Notes under the pieces: generated by a model
What the model was told of the DNA's origin: nothing
Database searches by the model: none
The model's input: only the letters and a program-made list of their open reading frames with translations
Translations under genes and position numbers: made by a program
Virus record (IMG/VR): IMGVR_UViG_3300031576_000006
Location: 52,232-116,231 of that record
Reading direction: 5' to 3' (one strand)
DNA: 64,000 nucleotides
From: a virus
Part shown: one piece after another, positions 1,163-61,758 of the stretch
Layout: each line of letters starts with the position of its first letter
Numbering within the stretch: position 1 is the first letter of the stretch

Positions 1163-1383
1163 CAAATTCCTTCTTTTGCTAGCAAATGAATCCACACAAT
1201 GTCTCGTTCTGGGGCGATCAACATCTTCTCTATTGTACCAAAGACTCCATTGATTTCAAGCTGTTTACCTACGTGTAGGTTTCCAAGAACTTCACTAACC
1301 TTATCGTACCTTAATGCGAAATTTATAATAGCTCTGCCTGGAGTTGGATCTTGCCCTATTACGGTTGCGCCCGTGATTGTCAT
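1159..1383 (-). CDS. Hypothetical protein, 74 aa (small beta protein)
   Basis: Begins MTITGATVIGQDPTPGR; alternating hydrophobic and polar residues with Gly turns suggest a small all-beta fold, perhaps SH3- or OB-like, but no family is recognised. The start overlaps the stop of the CYTH-like gene by four bases (ATGA), implying translational coupling. No transmembrane segment or Cys motif is seen. Confidence 0.65.
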   Translation of the reverse strand: MTITGATVIGQDPTPGRAIINFALRYDKVSEVLGNLHVGKQLEINGVFGTIEKMLIAPERDIVWIHLLAKEGIC

Positions 1384-1958
1384 TTTTTAAATTGCTCCCA
1401 GTTACTTTTCTTCATACGTTTTTGCGGCGTAATGCCAATGGCCGACATTTTTTGTTCCATGGCCTTCACTTCAGCGATAGCTTCTTCCGCAGATTTGAAT
1501 GGGTAATCCTTACGTGCTTCAATCTCGACCCTGCGACCAACTTCCTGCATGTTTTTGTCATAGATTATATAATAAACGACATCAATTTTTTCAAAGTAGT
1601 AGATGTCACAGTATTTATAAACACGAAAGTTTTCTTTGAACCCCATAAGGCTTACAAATTTCATCACAAGCCATTCGGGAACGCCTTCTAGCAACGGTAG
1701 ATCAACTTCTGTACGATGGTTATTATTTTTGTCATCAGTTTTGATTTTGATGGTCAATTCTGGACCTGGCCCGTTACGGAATCTAACGAATTCGAATGGC
1801 AATCCTGAACCGCTGTAGTAGATATCCCAGCTGGCGATTTCCAATCTTTTTTCGGGAGTAGACGCCTCTGCAAATTTTACGAAGTCAGCCAGCTTAATGT
1901 CTTCCGCCGAATACTTAAGCTCTAGCTCTTCGGTTCTAATATCGAATAATTGTTCCAT
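1380..1958 (-). CDS. CYTH-like domain protein
   Basis: 192 aa. The middle of the protein has the CYTH order (adenylate cyclase class IV / thiamine triphosphatase superfamily): FVRFRNGPGPELTIKIK (about 57-73), then a stretch ending in an acidic residue before a beta hairpin, LVMKFVSLMGF, a YKYCDIYY strand, and VVYYIIYDKNMQEVGRRVEIEA (about 127-148), whose VEIEA end matches the usual xEIE strand. CYTH proteins bind triphosphates in a beta tunnel using R/K and E residues with Mg2+. Here the first ExExK-like motif is not obvious, so catalysis is uncertain. The C-terminus is basic and helical. Assigned by pattern, not by search. Confidence 0.6.
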   Translation of the reverse strand: MEQLFDIRTEELELKYSAEDIKLADFVKFAEASTPEKRLEIASWDIYYSGSGLPFEFVRFRNGPGPELTIKIKTDDKNNNHRTEVDLPLLEGVPEWLVMKFVSLMGFKENFRVYKYCDIYYFEKIDVVYYIIYDKNMQEVGRRVEIEARKDYPFKSAEEAIAEVKAMEQKMSAIGITPQKRMKKSNWEQFKK

Positions 1959-5700: not shown

Positions 5701-5946
5701 ATGCAAATCACCCAGAAAGATAAATCAAATGCTGAAAATTTGTTGCGTGCTTTAAACAAAGCACGCTTCAATGATATTGAAGGTGTTGAAGTTTTGGCGC
5801 TGGCTGATGTTTTCAAATGGGCTTCTGGACTCGTGAAAAGAATTGATGAAGACCTTATACTTCAACAAGCCCTATCTAAGGCCACGATTCAAACTCCAGA
5901 TGAATCTATAAAATCTGAAGAAAAATCCCAGCCTCAAACACCATAG
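5701..5946 (+). CDS. Hypothetical small protein, 81 aa
   Basis: Begins MQITQKDKSNAENLLRALNK. Helical N-terminal 60 residues followed by a polar Ser/Glu/Pro tail. No family recognised. It is sandwiched between two virion-type genes in one transcript (gaps of 7 and 9 bases), so it may be a minor virion or assembly component. Confidence 0.65.
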   Translation: MQITQKDKSNAENLLRALNKARFNDIEGVEVLALADVFKWASGLVKRIDEDLILQQALSKATIQTPDESIKSEEKSQPQTP

Positions 5947-5955
5947 AGAGGTTTC

Positions 5956-7449
5956 ATGGGCGGTCTAGAAAAAGATACAGAATACGGTAAAGCACTATCG
6001 GGATCTATCACTGGCGTCGGCCAAAGTGTAGATATTTTTGATTCCAATTCCAATACCAGGACTATTCAGCTTGCTGGCACATGGTCTGGTACCTTAGTTG
6101 TAGAAGCCAGTAATGACAATGTTACCTACACAACTCTCTCAATTTTAAAATTAAGTTCATTTACATTCATCGCTTCGTTAACGGTCAGTGGCATGTACAT
6201 AGTAAATGGAGGTGGATATAGCCATCTTCGTGTAAGATCCACCGCCTGGACGAGCGGCACTGTAGATATCTCTGCTCGTGGTACAGATGCAGCTTCCTCG
6301 ATTCACTCTCAGTCTACCGTCCGAGGATCAGACGGAACCCAAATCGGAAATGCTTTTGACGCTCTTAAAATAGGCATACAGGGTAGCGATGGAAATTATG
6401 TTGCAGATGTAGAGTTAGTTAATAGCAAGCGAAGACTTCTTACTGATGCCATTGTAACCGTTGAAGAGATCTTTGGACAAGATCCCTTCCCAGATACATT
6501 TTTTACTATTGTAAATGCTGGCGCTGCTGGAACCACAATAAGAGTACAGGTTGCGGCAACAACTGGAGATCCAACGACTCCAGATAGAGATATCGCAGCG
6601 GTTGATCTCACTTATACTCTTGTGGCGGCTGACGTTGGTGATGAGATAAAACTCAGAGACAATATTATAACCTACCTGAACGCTCAATCTTCATTCAGTG
6701 CAAGCCTTAAGGCTCAAAAAGTAAAAGATCTGGCTATTGTTCACATTACCTCCAAGTTTCGTTCGATGACTGGAGAATTTTATGAGAGGCCGGGTGTCAA
6801 CGGTTTTCAGGTCACAACTACCGGAGCTACCTCAGTTCTTGTTGCCTTTGACAATGTAAAATCTCGCGGTAAGGCAACTTCTCTCGCGAGAGATCCAGAT
6901 TCGCCGCACAGACTTGGAATTCTTGGTATTTCAGGTTCGGTAACTGTAACTCCCGGTGGAATTTCCGATCTATTCATTGACAAACTACTCAATGTTGCCT
7001 CACCTGACATGCTTGTAAACGGTTCTGTCACCCCAGTAACTTTTACGCTTCCAACATCCTCACTGAATGACAAGTATGTACAAAGACTCAGATTAGTAGC
7101 TAACGGTAATGGAATAAAATTTGGTCAATTCCTAAGTCAGAATAGCTCACTAACGACGGGCCTTTTGATAGAGATTAAAAGTGACAATATTGTGACGACC
7201 TTACCCGTAATAAAATCAACAGACGACCTGAAGCATTTATTTTCCTTTCCCCCTACAGGATTTTCTCTACACGTCCAAGCTGGTCGAGATGATCTAACTG
7301 CGGAGTTTCAATTTGAAAATCCATTTGTTATCAGACGAACTGGAACCTTTACAACTGATGATTATCTTAAGGTCACGGTTCGGGACAATTTAACGAACAA
7401 CATTTTATACCTTGAAAGCATAGCTTTCGGATTTGAAAAGGAGCCTTAA
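5956..7449 (+). CDS. Virion-type structural protein, 497 aa
   Basis: The N-terminus (1-110) contains RTIQLAGTWSGTLVVEAS and a later HLRVRSTAWTSGTVDI strand, a beta-sandwich found repeatedly in phage tail and surface proteins. The middle (about 170-290) has FFTIVNAGAAGTTIRVQV and an Asp-rich loop as in baseplate or fibre-associated proteins, and the C-terminal 150 residues form another beta domain. No enzymatic motif was seen. Ribosome binding site GAGAGG. Likely a tail or capsid accessory protein; the exact place in the virion cannot be told. Confidence 0.7.
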   Translation: MGGLEKDTEYGKALSGSITGVGQSVDIFDSNSNTRTIQLAGTWSGTLVVEASNDNVTYTTLSILKLSSFTFIASLTVSGMYIVNGGGYSHLRVRSTAWTSGTVDISARGTDAASSIHSQSTVRGSDGTQIGNAFDALKIGIQGSDGNYVADVELVNSKRRLLTDAIVTVEEIFGQDPFPDTFFTIVNAGAAGTTIRVQVAATTGDPTTPDRDIAAVDLTYTLVAADVGDEIKLRDNIITYLNAQSSFSASLKAQKVKDLAIVHITSKFRSMTGEFYERPGVNGFQVTTTGATSVLVAFDNVKSRGKATSLARDPDSPHRLGILGISGSVTVTPGGISDLFIDKLLNVASPDMLVNGSVTPVTFTLPTSSLNDKYVQRLRLVANGNGIKFGQFLSQNSSLTTGLLIEIKSDNIVTTLPVIKSTDDLKHLFSFPPTGFSLHVQAGRDDLTAEFQFENPFVIRRTGTFTTDDYLKVTVRDNLTNNILYLESIAFGFEKEP

Positions 7450-8070: not shown

Positions 8071-8323
8071 TTGCAGAATTTGTCGATATTTTTGGAACAA
8101 TCTCATTGCGGTTGATCAATTGGTTAATACCATTTTTGGTGGTGACCCTGATGAAACCATTAGCTCTCGAATGGGCAAGTGGGGCATTCACTACAAAGAC
8201 GATCATAATAATTGGCGTCATAAGTTCGCTAAGGGTCTTTGCTGGCTTCTAAATCTCATCGACAAAGATCACTGCAATAAATCCATCGAGTCAGATGAAG
8301 GCAATAAAGAGGTAATAGAGTAA
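8060..8323 (+). CDS. Small phage protein of the GGDPDETISSR type
   Basis: 87 aa. Contains FGGDPDETISSRMGKW (residues about 26-41), a signature of a common phage family usually encoded beside holin and endolysin genes, and a CRICRYF start plus an FAKGLCWLLNLI hydrophobic patch. Its function is unknown in the literature I know; context suggests a lysis-associated role. Stop and next start overlap (TAATG). Confidence 0.65.
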   Translation: MKNNCRICRYFWNNLIAVDQLVNTIFGGDPDETISSRMGKWGIHYKDDHNNWRHKFAKGLCWLLNLIDKDHCNKSIESDEGNKEVIE

Positions 8324-8676
8324 TGAATCTTAAGCTTTTTGCCGAAAAATGGAAAGATCTAATAGATAAGGCTAACTCTCGTGGTATTCCACTGCCTATG
8401 GTTAGAGATAAAGGCAAGGCTTCGATTACGGCTACACTTGTTGTAATTTCTTCAGGCCTGTGTGGTATTTCCATACTCATGATGTTGGCAGTATTTATAT
8501 CCAAAATGACCGCCTTCTTTATGCTCAATGATGCCACTTTCAATATCATGAAAGAAGCATTTAGCTCCTCATTCCAATTCTTTATTGCATCTCTTGGCGG
8601 CTATCTTGGCCGTAAAATGCAGAAAAATGGTAATGATGTTACGCTCGACGAGAAAAAAGATCCCCCTAAAGAATAA
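8323..8676 (+). CDS. Putative holin-like membrane protein, 117 aa
   Basis: One long hydrophobic segment at about 35-68 (ATLVVISSGLCGISILMMLAVF) and a weaker one at about 78-97 ending YLGRKM, then a highly charged C-terminus. Size, topology and position directly after the GGDPDETISSR protein fit a holin or holin-like pore protein, but the endolysin lies 36 kb away at 45150, so the role is inferred. It could instead be another inner-membrane protein. Confidence 0.5.
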   Translation: MNLKLFAEKWKDLIDKANSRGIPLPMVRDKGKASITATLVVISSGLCGISILMMLAVFISKMTAFFMLNDATFNIMKEAFSSSFQFFIASLGGYLGRKMQKNGNDVTLDEKKDPPKE

Positions 8677-8717: not shown

Positions 8718-8972
8718 ATGATTGATCGTACTAAAAAATACAAAGTCGTAGGATATAATACGCCATGGTCCCCACCATTACCATCGGTCAACGAATACGA
8801 CTTAAAATGGGCTCAAGAACTAAAAGACGTATATGGACTCAATCTAGATGTGCAAGTAATTGCATTAAACTGGCGAACTTTCTCAAGCGATCTGTATTGT
8901 GCCGGATGGGTAGCAGACTCTAAAGAAAGCATCGAACGTTGTTTCGGTGTAGTCCTGGAGGAAATCCAGTGA
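8718..8972 (+). CDS. Hypothetical protein, 84 aa
   Basis: Begins MIDRTKKYKVVGYNTPWSPPLPSV; compact mixed alpha/beta protein with two cysteines. No family recognised. It is preceded by 41 non-coding bases and followed by a GTGA overlap with the next gene, starting a run of three small coupled genes that leads into the aminotransferase. Confidence 0.6.
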   Translation: MIDRTKKYKVVGYNTPWSPPLPSVNEYDLKWAQELKDVYGLNLDVQVIALNWRTFSSDLYCAGWVADSKESIERCFGVVLEEIQ

Positions 8973-9166
8973 GGTTTGATCCAAGATCCACCAAACACCC
9001 CGACGAACCTTACGTCTCAAGCCCAGACTGGGCGATTCAAAAGAATAATTTTTTAATCAATAAACAAGAAGTTAAGGCGTGTAACGCTAAAATGAATGGT
9101 AGGTTTCATTGGCCCAAGCGCGAAATACCGCCTGATATGGAGATTACAGATGGTTCTATCCGATAA
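8969..9166 (+). CDS. Hypothetical protein, 65 aa
   Basis: GTG at 8969 is chosen over the upstream TTG because GGAGG lies seven bases before it and the GTGA overlaps the preceding stop. The product is charged and Pro/Asn-rich (RFDPRSTKHPDEPYVSSPDW). Function unknown. Its position in the chain leading to the aminotransferase suggests co-expression. Confidence 0.55.
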   Translation: MRFDPRSTKHPDEPYVSSPDWAIQKNNFLINKQEVKACNAKMNGRFHWPKREIPPDMEITDGSIR

Positions 9167-9410
9167 AGAAGCCAAGTTCATAGCAATTCTTTTGGACATG
9201 GCCAAAGATGAGTTCGCAAATCACGGCTGCAATGATCTATCAGACGAACTTAGAAACTTTTTCACAAAAGAAGAACAGGATAAGCTCAACAGAGATATGC
9301 ACAATTGGAACGGTGACCCTGAAGAGTACCGTAGGGGTGAACCGCTTATGAATTATGACTGGCTTTGGATGTCATTCTTTGCTGGTAAACTAAGAGGAGA
9401 AATAAGATGA
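9150..9410 (+). CDS. Hypothetical protein, 86 aa
   Basis: ATG at 9150, with GGAG eight bases upstream, gives MVLSDKEAKFIAILLDMAKD; earlier in-frame starts lack a ribosome binding site. Helical N-terminus, then an FTKEEQDKLN-type EF-like helix and a Trp-rich C-terminus. The stop overlaps the aminotransferase start (ATGA). Confidence 0.55.
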   Translation: MVLSDKEAKFIAILLDMAKDEFANHGCNDLSDELRNFFTKEEQDKLNRDMHNWNGDPEEYRRGEPLMNYDWLWMSFFAGKLRGEIR

Positions 9411-10441
9411 ACTTTAATCGCAGGCCCAGACTAGATATGGGCTATGGCAACCCCGGATTCCTTCAGTCATACTGGCAGGAAGTTGGCCTGAGATTTCTTT
9501 CCAATCCACTAATAAGTCAAATGAGTTATCCACATAGTAAAGCTACTCTTCCGGAATTAGCTAACTACATCCGACTTATCCACAAGAAACATAAGAATGT
9601 AAAAATTACTGATAAGTCTCATATTGTAGTGACCAACGGAGCCGTTCAAGCTCTCTCTGCTGCAATGTTCTATTACCATAGAAAAAAGTACGTAGACTAT
9701 ATGTACGCCCCCATTCCTTATTGGGGTAGGTTCGATGACTTAGCCTCCAATCTACATATCACATTAGTCAATCAATGGTTAATGGATGACACTAAAACTG
9801 ATTACCAACAGGCTACTGCAGTTAAGAAAGATAGTGGGGTAATTTCACTTATCACTTCACCCAACAATCCGGACGGACAGGATACTTCAAAGCTTCCAGC
9901 TACAATCAGAGATGCCTGTTATAATTGGTCACATTATACCGATAAGGTCGTCAAGTTCAAAGATGAGGTTGTAATCTTTTCACTATCTAAATTCTCTGGC
10001 CATTCTTCCTCACGTATAGGCTGGGCTATTACTGAAAATCCTGAGATTGCCGAAACTATGCAAAAGTATATAGACACCTTTACTAGTGGAGTCAGTATAG
10101 ATGCTCAAGTGAAGGCATCCAGAATTTTGTCTTATATGAATTCAAACAATGATTTCGTGTTTGATAGTTTGGCTGGAATCATAAAGAAAAGAAATTTCAT
10201 ATTAAGAAAGCTTGTAAAACATACACAGCTTCCAATTAAGATCCTATCAAGACAAGGCATGTTTTTATATGTCGAATGCGATCCAGACTTAGTTAAAAAG
10301 CTTAATGTAGAATGTACAAACGGTAAGTACTTCGGAGACAACGAAGATCGACACAGATTTAATATTGGCGTCACTGAAGAAGTGTTTGTAGAGTTTGTTT
10401 CGAGACTTACACAAGTAAGTAAAGATTACATTAAAACGTAA
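9407..10441 (+). CDS. PLP-dependent aminotransferase, alliinase / Trp-aminotransferase-like
   Basis: 344 aa, fold-type I. Motifs in order: GNPGFLQSYW (14-23), as in alliinase-C proteins that have a DPTxYExYW-type motif; VVTNGAVQA (74-82) for phosphate binding; ITSPNNPDG (149-157); RDACYNWSHYTDK (168-180), closely matching the DxxYYWPHYT block of alliinases and TAA1-type enzymes, with D169 and Y172 in the cofactor-binding positions; and SLSKFSGHSSSRIGWA (192-207), where K195 is the predicted Schiff-base lysine and R203 the phosphate ligand. All core PLP residues are therefore present. The substrate is unknown: C-S lyase or amino-acid transaminase are the family precedents. It ends 11 bases into a convergent gene and follows three small coupled genes. 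Confidence 0.8.
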   Translation: MNFNRRPRLDMGYGNPGFLQSYWQEVGLRFLSNPLISQMSYPHSKATLPELANYIRLIHKKHKNVKITDKSHIVVTNGAVQALSAAMFYYHRKKYVDYMYAPIPYWGRFDDLASNLHITLVNQWLMDDTKTDYQQATAVKKDSGVISLITSPNNPDGQDTSKLPATIRDACYNWSHYTDKVVKFKDEVVIFSLSKFSGHSSSRIGWAITENPEIAETMQKYIDTFTSGVSIDAQVKASRILSYMNSNNDFVFDSLAGIIKKRNFILRKLVKHTQLPIKILSRQGMFLYVECDPDLVKKLNVECTNGKYFGDNEDRHRFNIGVTEEVFVEFVSRLTQVSKDYIKT

Positions 10442-10851: not shown

Positions 10852-11244
10852 ATGAAAAAGCTGCCGGACATAATTAAATTTGTGTCTCTTGAATCCGTTG
10901 GTGAGAACACTGGTCACCGATATGTTGGGTCTTTTCGACTCAAAGTTTTAATAACTCATGATCAACGTTTTGCCATTGAGCGTACATATAAAGAGATGTT
11001 GCCTGATGATGTTGGCGTCATTCAAGAGATTAAAATCAGATGTGGCGCTATAGCCGAGCTTGAGCATCGTGTCGTTGAAGCTCCATTATGGTGGAGAGAT
11101 TCACGCAATGGTAGAGACCTTATCGATTCACAGCCCCTATATGACATGATGATCCATATCTCTGAAAAGTACGAAGAATGGAAATCTGAACTTCAAAAGG
11201 AAGTAGCTGAGCCGAATGTACCTACCGAACAATCAAGTTCTTAA
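10852..11244 (+). CDS. Putative tail assembly chaperone (first of pair), 130 aa
   Basis: Position, size and context fit the first tail-assembly chaperone upstream of a tape measure gene: it is followed by an overlapping second gene and then the tape measure. The sequence (MKKLPDIIKFVSLESVGENTGHRYVGSF) is not diagnostic. It overlaps the next gene by 29 bases in another frame. I looked for a slippery heptamer in the overlap and saw none, so the second gene probably uses its own ATG by coupling. Confidence 0.5.
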   Translation: MKKLPDIIKFVSLESVGENTGHRYVGSFRLKVLITHDQRFAIERTYKEMLPDDVGVIQEIKIRCGAIAELEHRVVEAPLWWRDSRNGRDLIDSQPLYDMMIHISEKYEEWKSELQKEVAEPNVPTEQSSS

Positions 11245-11725: not shown

Positions 11726-14059
11726 ATGCAAAGCGACTTAATCAAGCAGATTATCCTCAAATTTAAGACAGAAGGCGCTGATCAGGTCAAGCGGGTCGCT
11801 GACTCGATGACTAAATCATTTAATCCTCGCGAGACCGAAAGGTTCATGCGTAACCTTGAGCAAGTCCAACAGAAGTTTGGTAAGGCTGGCACTGGTATGA
11901 GCGCTGAGCTTAAAAAGGTTACAGAATATTTCAAAGAACTTAATAATCAGCACTTCCAGCGAGCCGAGCGTAACCTCGATCGTATGGGTAGACTTATTAA
12001 GAATCAGATCGAAAATATTGAACGCCTTAAAAGAGAGGGTGCTTCTGCTGAAGAGATCGGTAAACGTCAGACCACACTTAAGTCGGCCACTCAAAGCATG
12101 GAACTGTTAGCAAATCAAACTCCATATAAAAGAGATCAATTGCGCGACTATATGGAAGGTCAAATTCCAGGACTAACCCAAGTAAGACGTATTGGCGGTA
12201 TGCTGTCTCCAGGCATGAAAATGGCCGGTGGAGCGGTAGTGGGTGCAGCTGGAGTAGCAAGTTTAGTAGCAAGTGCCACTAGCACCGTGAATGAGATTAA
12301 AAAAGAGAGCATGCAAAACCGCATCGCAGTTGCTGATATAATCAAATCACAAGCCTTGGATGTGTTTGGCGGTAATATGTCTCGTGCTGCACTTTATTCA
12401 AATAAGCAGCGCAGAGAAGGTATAGCTTCAGACCTTGGCACCCTACAAACTACACAAGATATTGCGACTGGCGCTAGAGGAATTGGCGGTACGCTGATGA
12501 CTGTAGGCGGCGGTATTCTTGGCAGTGCATTTGGTCCTCTCGGAACGGTTGCTGGTGCGTGGGCTGGAAGTAAACTTGGCGGTATGTTAGGTTTAGGCGG
12601 TGCAGGAGATACCATTAATGCCGGTAAATACTTTTTAGCCGGTGGACGAGAAGCTGCAATTCAAAAGAATAGACAGCTGGCGGAAGATAAAGCCGAGTCT
12701 CAAACAATGGATCTCGAATACTACAAAGAATTTGGTCGCAATGCTGAAATGCGATTCAATTATCAAAGACAGTTAGGATTAGGAGATCAGACTGCCCTAG
12801 ACGTTAGAGAACGATTCCGTGCAGCTGGAGTGTTAGATGAGGGTCAAATAGCTCAGTCAATGCTCAGCTTTCGCAGATTTGGAGCGCGTACAGCACCGAC
12901 TGTTGGTGCTCAAACTGCCGAGATGGCTAAACAAATGGGCATGTCACAAGAGTCCGCACAGATGTTAATGCAGAACGTTGCAGGAGTTAATCGTGGTGGT
13001 ATTGGTACAGCAAAGAAGGATTTGGAAGAACTCTTTAGACGTGCAGTAGCTTCAGGGGTTACTGATTCAGGTCTAATCGAAGAATATCAGAAATCAGCTA
13101 CCGGCTTAATGCAAGTATTGGGATCTCGTATGAATGCCGGTCAGATTGCCGGAGCGATGAATAGCTTTATGTTAGAAGGTGCTGGTCAGCGTGAGATTGC
13201 AGCTATACAACCAGCCATACAAGCTTTCGGCCAAACAATGAAAGGCGCTAGCCCATTAATGCAGGCCAAGAGCACTGCTGGTATATTAAATCTATCTCGT
13301 GATGCTAAAGGTAATGTCAATATGTTGGCATTACAATATCTCAGCAACCTTAATCCCACAGAATTGGCAACACTGAATGAGAACGATCCGGTTTTACAGC
13401 AACTGAATGAGAACGATCCGGTTTTACAGCAGATGGGTATTACTGCTGACAAGATCAAAACTTTCAGAAGAGATCAATCTCTCGGAACTCTGCGATCTAA
13501 CCTCGGTGCAGAGCCTGGCCTTAAACTGTTAAATAAAGCTCAGACAAAAGGTGCAAATCTTACAGAAGGTGACCAGCGAATGCTTGCTATTGGCTTCGGA
13601 CATACCGGTACTGGCGATATTCGAACAATTCAATCATTCCTTAAAGCCAATCTCGAATCAGCTGGCGGTGCAGGCGAAGGATTAACCTTTCAAGGTCCTG
13701 GTGGAGCACAGATAGGTTTGAAAGCTGTGCAAACTATGACAGCCGAACAAGTTATGGCTGATCAAGCTGGAACTCCAATATCGGCAGGCGTTGGGGTAAG
13801 AGCTAAGGCCGAAGGTCAAACCGAATTAGACCGACAGGTATATGAAAAAGTTTCTAAGAATATAGACAGCGTTTATGCGGTTTTTAAAGAACAGACCACA
13901 CAAGTAATGCAGGATCTTGATAAGAACGTTTTGGCAGGTCCTATCGGTGAAATCGGTGATGCTGCACAACGCATTGCTAATGCACTTTCCAGTGCCGCTG
14001 ATCGTATTGAGGGTAATTCTTCCCATAGACAATCCTCTTCAAAACAGCCGGGTGAATAA
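11726..14059 (+). CDS. Tail tape measure protein, 777 aa
   Basis: Long, mainly helical protein with an N-terminal coiled-coil region (about 1-160, many Arg/Glu heptads), a hydrophobic Gly/Ala segment near 165-190 and a second Gly-rich hydrophobic stretch near 245-295 (TLMTVGGGILGSAFGPLG), followed by Gln-rich helices. This is the usual tape-measure layout. It sets tail length by spanning the tube, and the hydrophobic parts may aid membrane passage. At about 1.5 angstrom per residue it predicts a tail of roughly 115 nm. It contains a perfect in-frame 30-bp tandem duplication (10 aa) at 13372-13431. The stop overlaps the next start (TAATG). Confidence 0.85.
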   Translation: MQSDLIKQIILKFKTEGADQVKRVADSMTKSFNPRETERFMRNLEQVQQKFGKAGTGMSAELKKVTEYFKELNNQHFQRAERNLDRMGRLIKNQIENIERLKREGASAEEIGKRQTTLKSATQSMELLANQTPYKRDQLRDYMEGQIPGLTQVRRIGGMLSPGMKMAGGAVVGAAGVASLVASATSTVNEIKKESMQNRIAVADIIKSQALDVFGGNMSRAALYSNKQRREGIASDLGTLQTTQDIATGARGIGGTLMTVGGGILGSAFGPLGTVAGAWAGSKLGGMLGLGGAGDTINAGKYFLAGGREAAIQKNRQLAEDKAESQTMDLEYYKEFGRNAEMRFNYQRQLGLGDQTALDVRERFRAAGVLDEGQIAQSMLSFRRFGARTAPTVGAQTAEMAKQMGMSQESAQMLMQNVAGVNRGGIGTAKKDLEELFRRAVASGVTDSGLIEEYQKSATGLMQVLGSRMNAGQIAGAMNSFMLEGAGQREIAAIQPAIQAFGQTMKGASPLMQAKSTAGILNLSRDAKGNVNMLALQYLSNLNPTELATLNENDPVLQQLNENDPVLQQMGITADKIKTFRRDQSLGTLRSNLGAEPGLKLLNKAQTKGANLTEGDQRMLAIGFGHTGTGDIRTIQSFLKANLESAGGAGEGLTFQGPGGAQIGLKAVQTMTAEQVMADQAGTPISAGVGVRAKAEGQTELDRQVYEKVSKNIDSVYAVFKEQTTQVMQDLDKNVLAGPIGEIGDAAQRIANALSSAADRIEGNSSHRQSSSKQPGE
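13372..13431 (+). repeat. Perfect 30-bp tandem repeat inside the tape measure gene
   Basis: Two identical 30-base units (13372-13401 and 13402-13431) encode LNENDPVLQQ twice. In-frame, so the tape measure gains ten residues. Perfect identity suggests a recent slippage or duplication. Confidence 0.95.
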
Positions 14060-15951
14060 TGGCGGCAATTAAATTGATAAAGCCAAGTCATCCAGATAGT
14101 CATCAACAGGCTCCAAGTCCTATTGTATGTTTCTTACCTTTTACCTATCGAGATACTTATAATAATAAAAAAACATTCCCTGATGTAAGTATTACAGAGA
14201 AATCTCTTAGTATAGAAGAGCCAATTGTGGTAGTGAATGATGCCGTAAAAATTACAATAATGAACTCTAAGGCAAATGCCATAGATACTGCAGAAATTTT
14301 GCTCATGTCGGGCGATATTAATTATTCAGCAGCAATAGCCCCCGGAGATCATGCATTGATTTGGTTGGTCAACAATCAGGAAGATTATGAAAAAGTTTCA
14401 AACGACGTAAAAAACAATCGCGTATCTTTGAATGGCGAAAAGAGCGGCCTTAAATTTATCGGTAAGGTTAATTCAGTACGTCAAATCCTTCAAACTCAAG
14501 GGACAGACGGGAAAAAGTTTTATAAATTTAACGTTACTCTGTCTGGATTTTCAGAATTTCAAACACAGGTTTATTATAACGAGCTACTGAGTTCCGTTAT
14601 AAATTCTGTTGATAAGAATGCCTCTAATGTCCAATTTTTTGCACAGATTAGTGAACAGTATCAGGATCTTTTTAAGTCTATTGAAAATGACGCTAGGTTA
14701 CCTACGGAGGAATTAATTAAATTTTTTGTTGATGTGTTTATGGGTCCAGGGCCTAAAAACAATGCTTCGGTTATTGACAGTAAGCTAGTTCAAACTCCGA
14801 ATGCAGCATTTCTTATTCCAACTGAACTTGCTAGATACTTGGGACTCGCCCTTGGAGAAAAGGCAGACAAAAGCCTCGGCTTTCAATATAGCGATATTTT
14901 ACAACGAATTTTCGGATTACAAAGTTACAGCAGTAATAATATGTTTCCCGACCTGTTCCCTTCAGATCATAACAATTATTTTAAATGTAGTCCGCTCAAG
15001 GGTGGAACTCTTATTCCTCCTGCAAACTTTAACAACATAAGTCTTTGGTCTATTTTACAGCAATTTGGCAACCCCGCACTAAATGAAATTTATACAACTT
15101 TGAAGTTTATTCCAAATAGGGGAATTATGCCTACGCTGGTTCTTAGACAGCTTCCATTTTCAACTCGATTTCTTGCTAACCAATTTGGTCCTGACGAAAT
15201 GACTCAGATAGCAAACCTGCCCAGATGGAAGTTAGATGATAATTACCCAGTGAGTCAATACAATCTTGGGACCTCCGACGCTGAGCGATTCAACTTCTTC
15301 CAGGTATATACTAATTCAATCTCAGATAATGATTCCCAGAGGGCCATACAACTTCAACTTATTCTTGGTAATGTGCGCACAGATCTTGCTGATATTATTA
15401 GATCCGGTCCCCGCATTCATTCTAGTACAAGCGATACGGAAGCTGCAGTAAAAGGTAAAACAATTGATTCAGCTGCCATTAATGAATGGGCAGATCTTAT
15501 TGCTGATTTCTTTGCCAACGGACACCTCAAAATGAATGGTACAATTACTGTCGCCGGTATTCAAGATCCAATCGCCGTTGGTGATAATTTTCAATTTGAT
15601 GGTAAGGTATTTCACATCGAAGGCATTCAGCACGTTTATGAAATAGAGCCCACTAAGGGCAATAAAGTTTTTCAAACAACCCTAATGTTGTCGCATGGTT
15701 ATTATATTAATCCATCAACTGGAGAATTAAATTATATGACCGAACAAGTCAGGGAACGTGCGTTCCAGGCCGATAAGCATCTGCCTGGGTTTACAGATGA
15801 GGAAAGATATATAAATGATGTGCCAATATCATCAACTAATGATTCAGCCAATAAACCAACGCAATTACGGAAAAAGATTGAAACCTTCACAAATGATACT
15901 GTGACGAGCGCATCAAGTCGATTGAAGGGTAAATATGAAAATAAAGCATAA
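14059..15951 (+). CDS. Baseplate hub protein, 630 aa
   Basis: Follows the tape measure and precedes the spike, the usual place of the hub (T4 gp27 / Mu gp44 / gpD role). N-terminal region of beta barrels (about 1-170) with KITIMNSKANAIDTAEILL, a mixed central part, and a C-terminal barrel with TITVAGIQDPIAVGDNFQFDGKVFHIEGI (about 494-522), the recurring IxVGDxFxxDGxxFxIxxI strand pair of hub proteins. It would form the ring that the spike attaches to. Family assignment is by order and the C-terminal strand pattern. Confidence 0.65.
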   Translation: MAAIKLIKPSHPDSHQQAPSPIVCFLPFTYRDTYNNKKTFPDVSITEKSLSIEEPIVVVNDAVKITIMNSKANAIDTAEILLMSGDINYSAAIAPGDHALIWLVNNQEDYEKVSNDVKNNRVSLNGEKSGLKFIGKVNSVRQILQTQGTDGKKFYKFNVTLSGFSEFQTQVYYNELLSSVINSVDKNASNVQFFAQISEQYQDLFKSIENDARLPTEELIKFFVDVFMGPGPKNNASVIDSKLVQTPNAAFLIPTELARYLGLALGEKADKSLGFQYSDILQRIFGLQSYSSNNMFPDLFPSDHNNYFKCSPLKGGTLIPPANFNNISLWSILQQFGNPALNEIYTTLKFIPNRGIMPTLVLRQLPFSTRFLANQFGPDEMTQIANLPRWKLDDNYPVSQYNLGTSDAERFNFFQVYTNSISDNDSQRAIQLQLILGNVRTDLADIIRSGPRIHSSTSDTEAAVKGKTIDSAAINEWADLIADFFANGHLKMNGTITVAGIQDPIAVGDNFQFDGKVFHIEGIQHVYEIEPTKGNKVFQTTLMLSHGYYINPSTGELNYMTEQVRERAFQADKHLPGFTDEERYINDVPISSTNDSANKPTQLRKKIETFTNDTVTSASSRLKGKYENKA

Positions 15952-61233: not shown

Positions 61234-61758
61234 TCAATAACAGACCTTACCGCGAGTAATTACGATATCAAATACTATCTTGCCACGTTTTATTTTCAAT
61301 GTCAACGAGGTACCTGGAGTTCCTATAATTTCAGGCTGGTTGATTGAAACAATGATATCACCGACCATCAGACCGGCCAAATCAGCAGGGTAACCCTCAA
61401 AGACATCTACAATGCCGTAATCATTTATGGCACGAATATAGCCTTCTCGTATGCCAATACCTCCATACCACTTGTCAGGGCACTCTTTGTCCACATTGTG
61501 CTTACGACGTTTCTTTTGTTTAGTAATAATCTCAGATTGGTGCAGTGGGGTCTCGATTAATGCAACTTCAACGATTTTGATTTTGGGGATGATATTAGCT
61601 ACATCGACGCCCTTATACCTCGCTCCACCCTCACCGCCGTCTTTGTCGCCCTTACCCTTGCCATTTCCACCGGAACCCATGGCTACCGATATAAGGAAAA
61701 TAGCATGCAATAATATACTGCTGACGAGACTTATTTTTTCATGTTTTGAGAGAGCCAT
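61234..61758 (-). CDS. Membrane-anchored PDZ domain protein, 174 aa
   Basis: N-terminal signal anchor at about 10-27 (SLVSSILLHAIFLISVAM), a Gly/Lys/Asp-rich linker (29-46), a second segment (51-95), and a PDZ fold at about 98-170 with GGIGIREGYIRAI, EGYPADLAGLMVGDIIVSIN and a final beta strand. PDZ domains bind C-terminal peptides, as in envelope proteases and secretion systems. No protease domain is visible. It overlaps the upstream gene by 28 bases. Confidence 0.75.
   Translation of the reverse strand: MALSKHEKISLVSSILLHAIFLISVAMGSGGNGKGKGDKDGGEGGARYKGVDVANIIPKIKIVEVALIETPLHQSEIITKQKKRRKHNVDKECPDKWYGGIGIREGYIRAINDYGIVDVFEGYPADLAGLMVGDIIVSINQPEIIGTPGTSLTLKIKRGKIVFDIVITRGKVCY

Follow-up and report, generated by a model that had tools for sequence, protein, structure and literature searches.

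The stretch of DNA analysed here (the window, 64,000 nucleotides) corresponds to bases 52232-116231 of the IMG/VR virus record IMGVR_UViG_3300031576_000006 (116,231 bases), and hence to one end of that contig. An unbroken reading frame with an ATG start at 9407-10441, on the plus strand, encodes a 344 aa PLP fold-type-I enzyme of the Alliinase_C/TAA1 type; it is preceded by a good Shine-Dalgarno sequence (AGGAG) and coupled through an ATGA overlap to the gene before it. A preliminary description had placed the enzyme gene after three small coupled genes and before a reverse gene, and this arrangement is borne out. The three coupled genes, all on the plus strand, lie at 8718-8972 (84 aa, no family match), 8969-9166 (GTG start) and about 9150-9410 (no family match; listed as an ORF at 9096-9410, with its start likely at 9150), and are themselves preceded by a gene at 8323-8676 (plus strand) for a 117 aa protein that matches no family and whose two hydrophobic stretches recall a holin, by eye only. 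The convergent reverse gene (10431 to about 10736, minus strand) overlaps the 3' end of the enzyme gene and encodes a small protein with an exported-looking N-terminus. A scan for promoters and terminators returned nothing beyond chance, and PADLOC models matched neither the enzyme nor its neighbours, on which ground a known defence-system component was rejected.

To the right of this group, the gene at 10852-11244 (plus strand), a phage core gene also found in the sister phage L029 (61%) and in Myxococcus phage Mx1 (31%), forms the border of the accessory position. It is followed on the same strand by a gene held in common with L029 (11216-11722, 48%), a probable tape-measure gene (11726-14059, 37% in L029), whose function is suggested by size and position, and a tail/baseplate gene at 14059-15951 (48% in L029). 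The product of the latter has a sole relative among 50,697 catalogued phage records, in phage Mx1 (28%, 169.6 kb); several further window proteins match Mx1 at 26-37% identity. A baseplate J protein is encoded inside the window, and PHROG matches identify a tail sheath and a major head (capsid) protein in upstream stretches of the same contig. The source record is thus a phage contig, distantly related to Mx1 as judged from these protein matches. A scan for relatives of this phage recovered only L029 and one distant contig, and a single-protein scan of viral contigs with the 14059-15951 protein found nothing. Elsewhere in the window, 61234-61758 (minus strand) encodes a small PDZ-domain protein, and the sister phage (L101 9027-9545) encodes a protein with a PDZ-like tail and a membrane-like N-terminus. 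Genes for a DHH phosphoesterase and a dNMP kinase adjoin on the minus strand of a locus that overlaps the window start and extends upstream (L004:14959-15867 and L004:15872-16525). Near the contig start (L002 374-7685) lie genes for very large proteins, parts of which look like acetyltransferases and other enzymes; their position is reminiscent of the long prohead-protease region in Mx1 (both by eye).

The sister phage L029 (IMGVR_UViG_3300001765_000256, 135 kb) comes from a different metagenome. Its tail and baseplate genes are 37-65% identical to those of the window, its sheath and capsid genes about 74-80%, and its gene order is the same: enzyme, overlapping small reverse gene, 130 aa gene, 168 aa gene and tape measure. 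The two enzymes are 42% identical, and the reverse neighbours 27% (E 4e-12), with an exported-looking N-terminus in both. This collinearity rules out host contamination or a chimera, including the host-contamination artefact that the preliminary description had named as a refuting outcome. A six-frame profile search of the whole Mx1 genome found no copy of the enzyme, so that the gene is kept in one related phage and missing from another. The suggestion of an accessory island consequently stands in so far as the gene is absent from Mx1 and differently placed in related phages; against it, the unit of enzyme and reverse neighbour is conserved in L029. Two CRISPR-like arrays also lie on the L029 contig, both built on a single 28-nt repeat (GTGTAACGTCATGCGTATAAGGTAAAGG) with unique spacers of 32-34 nt, one array ending just upstream of the enzyme gene (L029/L098 3-211) and the other at 47.8-48.1 kb of the contig (L101 about 5810-6080). 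Inspection by eye of the 12 kb surrounding the second array showed no cas gene, and no array of this kind was found in the window or in the fetched upstream stretches of its contig.

The window enzyme belongs to the Alliinase_C/TAA1 family of PLP fold-type-I enzymes, as the preliminary description had proposed; profile, structure model and tree all support the assignment. The Pfam profile Alliinase_C (PF04864) covers residues 10-247 and scores 129 bits against a cut-off of 22 (E 2.6e-37). Aminotran_1_2 (PF00155) gives 73 bits (E 3.5e-20, cut-off 19.7), which together with the fold type makes it a class I aminotransferase. A phmmer search against the PDB returned TAA1 (3bwn, 3.3e-21) and alliin lyase (1e-15), and nothing convincing beyond these. 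The motifs quoted in that description are all present: SPNNPDG at 151-157, DACYNWSHYT at 169-178 and the lysine loop SKFSGHSSSRIGWA at 194-207. They contain the family hallmarks N154 (SPNNP), D169/Y172/W174 (DxxYxW block), the Schiff-base lysine K195 (the PLP lysine in SKxxGHxxSRIGWA) and the phosphate arginine R203; the carboxylate arginine is R317. Alliinase sensu stricto is defined with an N-terminal EGF-like domain (PMC10015382). The window enzyme starts at the Alliinase_C core (residue 10) and has no Pfam match to an EGF domain; because this domain is absent, the strict definition of an alliinase excludes the enzyme. It carries V80 where TAA1 has T101, a residue conserved in the TAA1/TAR PLP pocket (PMC6997161); T or S occupies this position in 11 of the 14 phages of the window's subclade.

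Across 33 aligned phage proteins, twelve residues are invariant (G14, P16, Y41, G78, N154, D169, Y172, S192, K195, G198, R203 and R317). Profile alignment equates N154/D169/Y172/K195/R203/R317 with TAA1 N168/D191/Y194/K217/R225/R363, K217 being the PLP lysine of TAA1. Omega values of 0.03-0.18 in eight phage pairs (Nei-Gojobori, several dS values near saturation) point to strong purifying selection on the family. The AlphaFold2 model of the window enzyme (pLDDT 87, pTM 0.88, with low confidence at residues 31-40 and 131-140) retrieves TAA1 first from the PDB (E 5e-22, TM about 0.8), all twelve TAA1 chains heading the fold list, then alliinase (1.5e-19) and aspartate aminotransferases (2e-15); no other fold is indicated. 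In a viral structure library, the best match was a giant-virus LL-diaminopimelate aminotransferase only (5e-14). Taken together, the invariant residues, the omega values and the modelled fold make it very likely that the gene encodes an active PLP enzyme.

As a single sequence, the window enzyme matched nothing in viral contigs, catalogued phages or plasmids, and alignments were required to detect its family in viral contigs. Alignment-driven IMG/VR scans recovered 2 viral loci with the window enzyme and TAA1, 13 with five phage sequences, and 23 and 16 with subclade alignments. After de-duplication, a homologous ORF is present in 41 IMG/VR contigs, window included, a few contig pairs being near-identical. 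Many member contigs measure 130-170 kb (144-170 kb for the seven contigs searched whole), and the family divides into three subclades. PF04864 matched all 33 phage members examined. The sole PHROG match, PHROG 5879 (function unassigned), was to 26 of the 33 (best 2.7e-22) and was weak and partial for the window enzyme (5.5e-7). Queries with the window enzyme and four further members found no true family member among the 50,697 catalogued phage records (INPHARED): the matches of L013 and L034 were only of a weak, general aminotransferase type, and the 'Listeria phage' fragments and faecal records matched by L013 (23%) were set aside on that ground. A scan of 84,980 species, which demanded exact short motifs, gave three matches with E < 1e-15, in Elusimicrobia, Cytophagales and Paceibacterota metagenome-assembled genomes. 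They were rejected as bacterial homologues, being phage contigs binned with bacteria; L013 agrees with IMGVR_UViG_2623620416_000002 (146,658 bases) in length and coordinates, L014 is collinear with it, and the L012 neighbours (CYTH, Zn-ribbon, deformylase) are common to phage contigs. On this sequence evidence the enzyme represents a standing phage gene family, probably passed between many large tailed phages. The earlier view that such a gene is no normal phage component accordingly holds for catalogued phages, and fails for about 40 uncultured phage contigs.

The position of the gene varies among these phages. In the Mx1-like phages L031 and L032 it is flanked by a GroEL-adjacent ORF on one side and a recombination endonuclease on the other, and the two flanking genes adjoin in Mx1 without it. 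It follows DnaB/ClpP in four other Mx1-like phages (L033, L034, L036 and L038), adjoins terminase and portal in smaller phages (L045-L048, L055 and L056), and sits beside a B12-type ribonucleotide reductase in L010, likewise a smaller phage. Because positions and neighbours differ between phage lineages, the gene is mobile and has no constant partner. The candidate operon partners CYTH, Zn-ribbon and deformylase are found repeatedly, but for the most part in a single subclade, and were rejected as constant. In six phage contigs (L012:6963-7574, L033:10935-11579, L064, L068, L072 and L075) a CYTH protein gene follows that of the enzyme at a distance of 1-3 genes, the domain being confirmed in L033. 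The window has a CYTH-type relative of its own at 1380-1958 (minus strand), 8 kb from the enzyme gene and on the opposite strand. In L010, a low-complexity Ser/Gly/Arg repeat ORF (14670-14912; SRSGSLSGSG...) overlaps an Asp/Pro repeat ORF on the opposite strand.

To place the family among cellular enzymes, its profile was compared with the PDB, where TAA1 scored 208.7 bits, alliinase 155 and the best bacterial aspartate aminotransferase 112 (TAA1 profile E 1e-60). In about 1,280 bacterial genomes (248 Bacteroidota, 299 Pseudomonadota, 251 Chloroflexota, 287 from the phylum of the Paceibacterota genome and 199 from that of the Elusimicrobia genome), proteins outside the three phage contigs reached at most 126 bits, and phage members in the records searched 279-371 bits. 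A tree of the 33 phage proteins, two plant enzymes (from the PDB, the sole eukaryotes) and 13 cellular aminotransferases grouped TAA1 and alliinase with the window's subclade of 14 phages (support 100/100, without Legionella), apart from the other class I aminotransferases and in agreement with the preliminary description. Trees with Legionella and more cellular rows recovered the same grouping (98/90 and 92/96). A single phage clade excluding the plants is ruled out (lnL -46.7, AU p=4e-5), and a placement of the plants as sister of the window's subclade, rather than inside it, was not rejected (p=0.16). Five residues, W23, H59, N64, W174 and R262, occur in all 14 subclade phages and both plant enzymes, and are nearly absent from the remaining 19 phages and from 18 cellular proteins. 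By these comparisons the closest known kin of the family outside phages are the plant enzymes TAA1 and alliinase, ahead of every bacterial aminotransferase recovered. Several Legionella genomes (L015-L020, L023) encode proteins of 524-545 aa whose N-terminus looks exported and whose Alliinase-like core scores 79-92 bits against the phage profile. These homologues join the same clade, near TAA1, but their branch is so long (2.6-3.4) that the placement is not trusted.

We consider it probable that the window gene, as a member of this phage family, specifies a PLP aminotransferase of the TAA1/alliinase type that is catalytically competent and stands alone. The phage enzymes, at 310-344 aa, form a minimal core that lacks the additions seen in plants. 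The enzyme, probably dimeric, would carry PLP as an internal aldimine on K195, with R317 gripping the alpha-carboxylate of an L-amino acid, which would pass its amino group to pyruvate or 2-oxoglutarate and become the 2-oxo acid. The lack of a constant operon partner makes it probable that the enzyme works by itself on some common metabolite, and the amino-acid or keto-acid pool of the infected cell might thereby be altered. The substrate cannot be read from the sequence, because the presumed side-chain pocket position varies (Y13 in the window enzyme, H29 in TAA1, S in alliinase and W, F, K or V in other phages). Kinship with TAA1 would make an aromatic amino acid such as Trp or Phe the first guess; TAA1 and TAR1 are promiscuous with aromatic amino acids (PMC9309667).

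An unlikely alternative is C-S lysis in the manner of garlic alliinase or PatB, in which cysteine conjugates or sulfoxides would yield a thiol or sulfenate, pyruvate and ammonia and so feed or disturb sulfur metabolism. Alliinase itself demonstrates that this scaffold is capable of C-S lysis, alliin lyase is the second-best solved relative by sequence and fold, and L010 encodes, close to its enzyme gene, a protein that by eye looks like an ATP-pyrophosphatase/PAPS reductase (no Pfam match). However, TAA1 outscores alliinase, the EGF domain and cysteine-rich insert are absent, and no sulfur gene is constant nearby. PLP enzymes are known in phage base hypermodification, and sub-threshold matches to the NCBIfam PLP cyclases GntC (31 of 33 phage members) and VioD (26 of 33) hint at an unusual substrate, such as a modified nucleotide, a guanidino amino acid or a cell-wall precursor, handled in a phage-specific modification pathway as GntC/VioD handle hydroxyarginine. 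We rate this slightly below the lyase, as neighbours vary by phage lineage without a constant kinase, glycosyl- or aminoacyl-transferase, and GntC falls far below TAA1 by fold; a literature search on PLP hypermodification found nothing. The roles floated in the preliminary description (C-S lysis, a signal molecule or base modification) are conjectural. Bacteria commonly encode aminotransferases, and phages often take their auxiliary metabolic genes from hosts, which would fit a recent pickup of an ordinary host enzyme by one phage, of no lasting use. Such a pickup is highly improbable given the gap between cellular proteins (at most 126 bits) and phage members (at least 279), the long phage-side divergence, omega below 0.2 and the retention of the gene in L029. 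The family adds an uncharacterised metabolic enzyme under selection, unseen in catalogued phages, to the genes that phages use inside their hosts.

The clade of tryptophan aminotransferases and alliinases has been described as almost exclusively plant (PMC9309667), and the prokaryotic relatives cited earlier reached about 25% identity at weak E-values (PMC4754409). Plant biologists disagree about the origin of the TAA/alliinase genes (PMC4754409, PMC5611494, PMC10015382) and about the number of transfers (PMC4754409, PMC5611494), and no literature tying the family to phages was found. A large phage branch interleaved with the plant enzymes brings new sequences to this debate and makes it directly testable. 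One speculative and rather doubtful scenario is that the plant genes descend, via transfer into eukaryotes, from a gene diversified by bacteriophages or from a cellular lineage surviving mainly through them; we offer it only as a hypothesis, drawn from five bacterial phyla in depth and from two plant sequences as the only eukaryotes. If true, a plant gene set including the enzyme that starts auxin synthesis would trace to a phage-diversified gene.

Among known systems, Myxococcus phage Mx1 is a related myophage sharing baseplate, tail and structural genes at 26-37%, but it is without the enzyme gene. The bacterial class I aspartate-type aminotransferases (1o4s, 1bkg, and the top matches from Chloroflexota and the Elusimicrobiota phylum) have the fold type I and catalytic set of the window enzyme, but form a separate clade in three trees, score 126 bits at best and lack the diagnostic residues. 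Garlic alliinase (1lk9/2hor), the enzyme behind the smell of garlic, has the Alliinase_C domain and PLP apparatus in common with the window enzyme, and differs in its EGF-like N-terminal domain and cysteine-rich insert. The best match in both sequence (3e-21 single, 1e-60 profile) and fold is Arabidopsis TAA1 (3bwn/3bwo), the L-tryptophan aminotransferase that starts plant auxin synthesis. At 27% identity, the window enzyme differs from it by V80 and Y13 in place of T101 and H29 and by the absence of a plant insert of about 20 aa before the last domain, whereas all catalytic residues are common to the two, together with W23, H59, N64, W174, R262 and F327 (window numbering).
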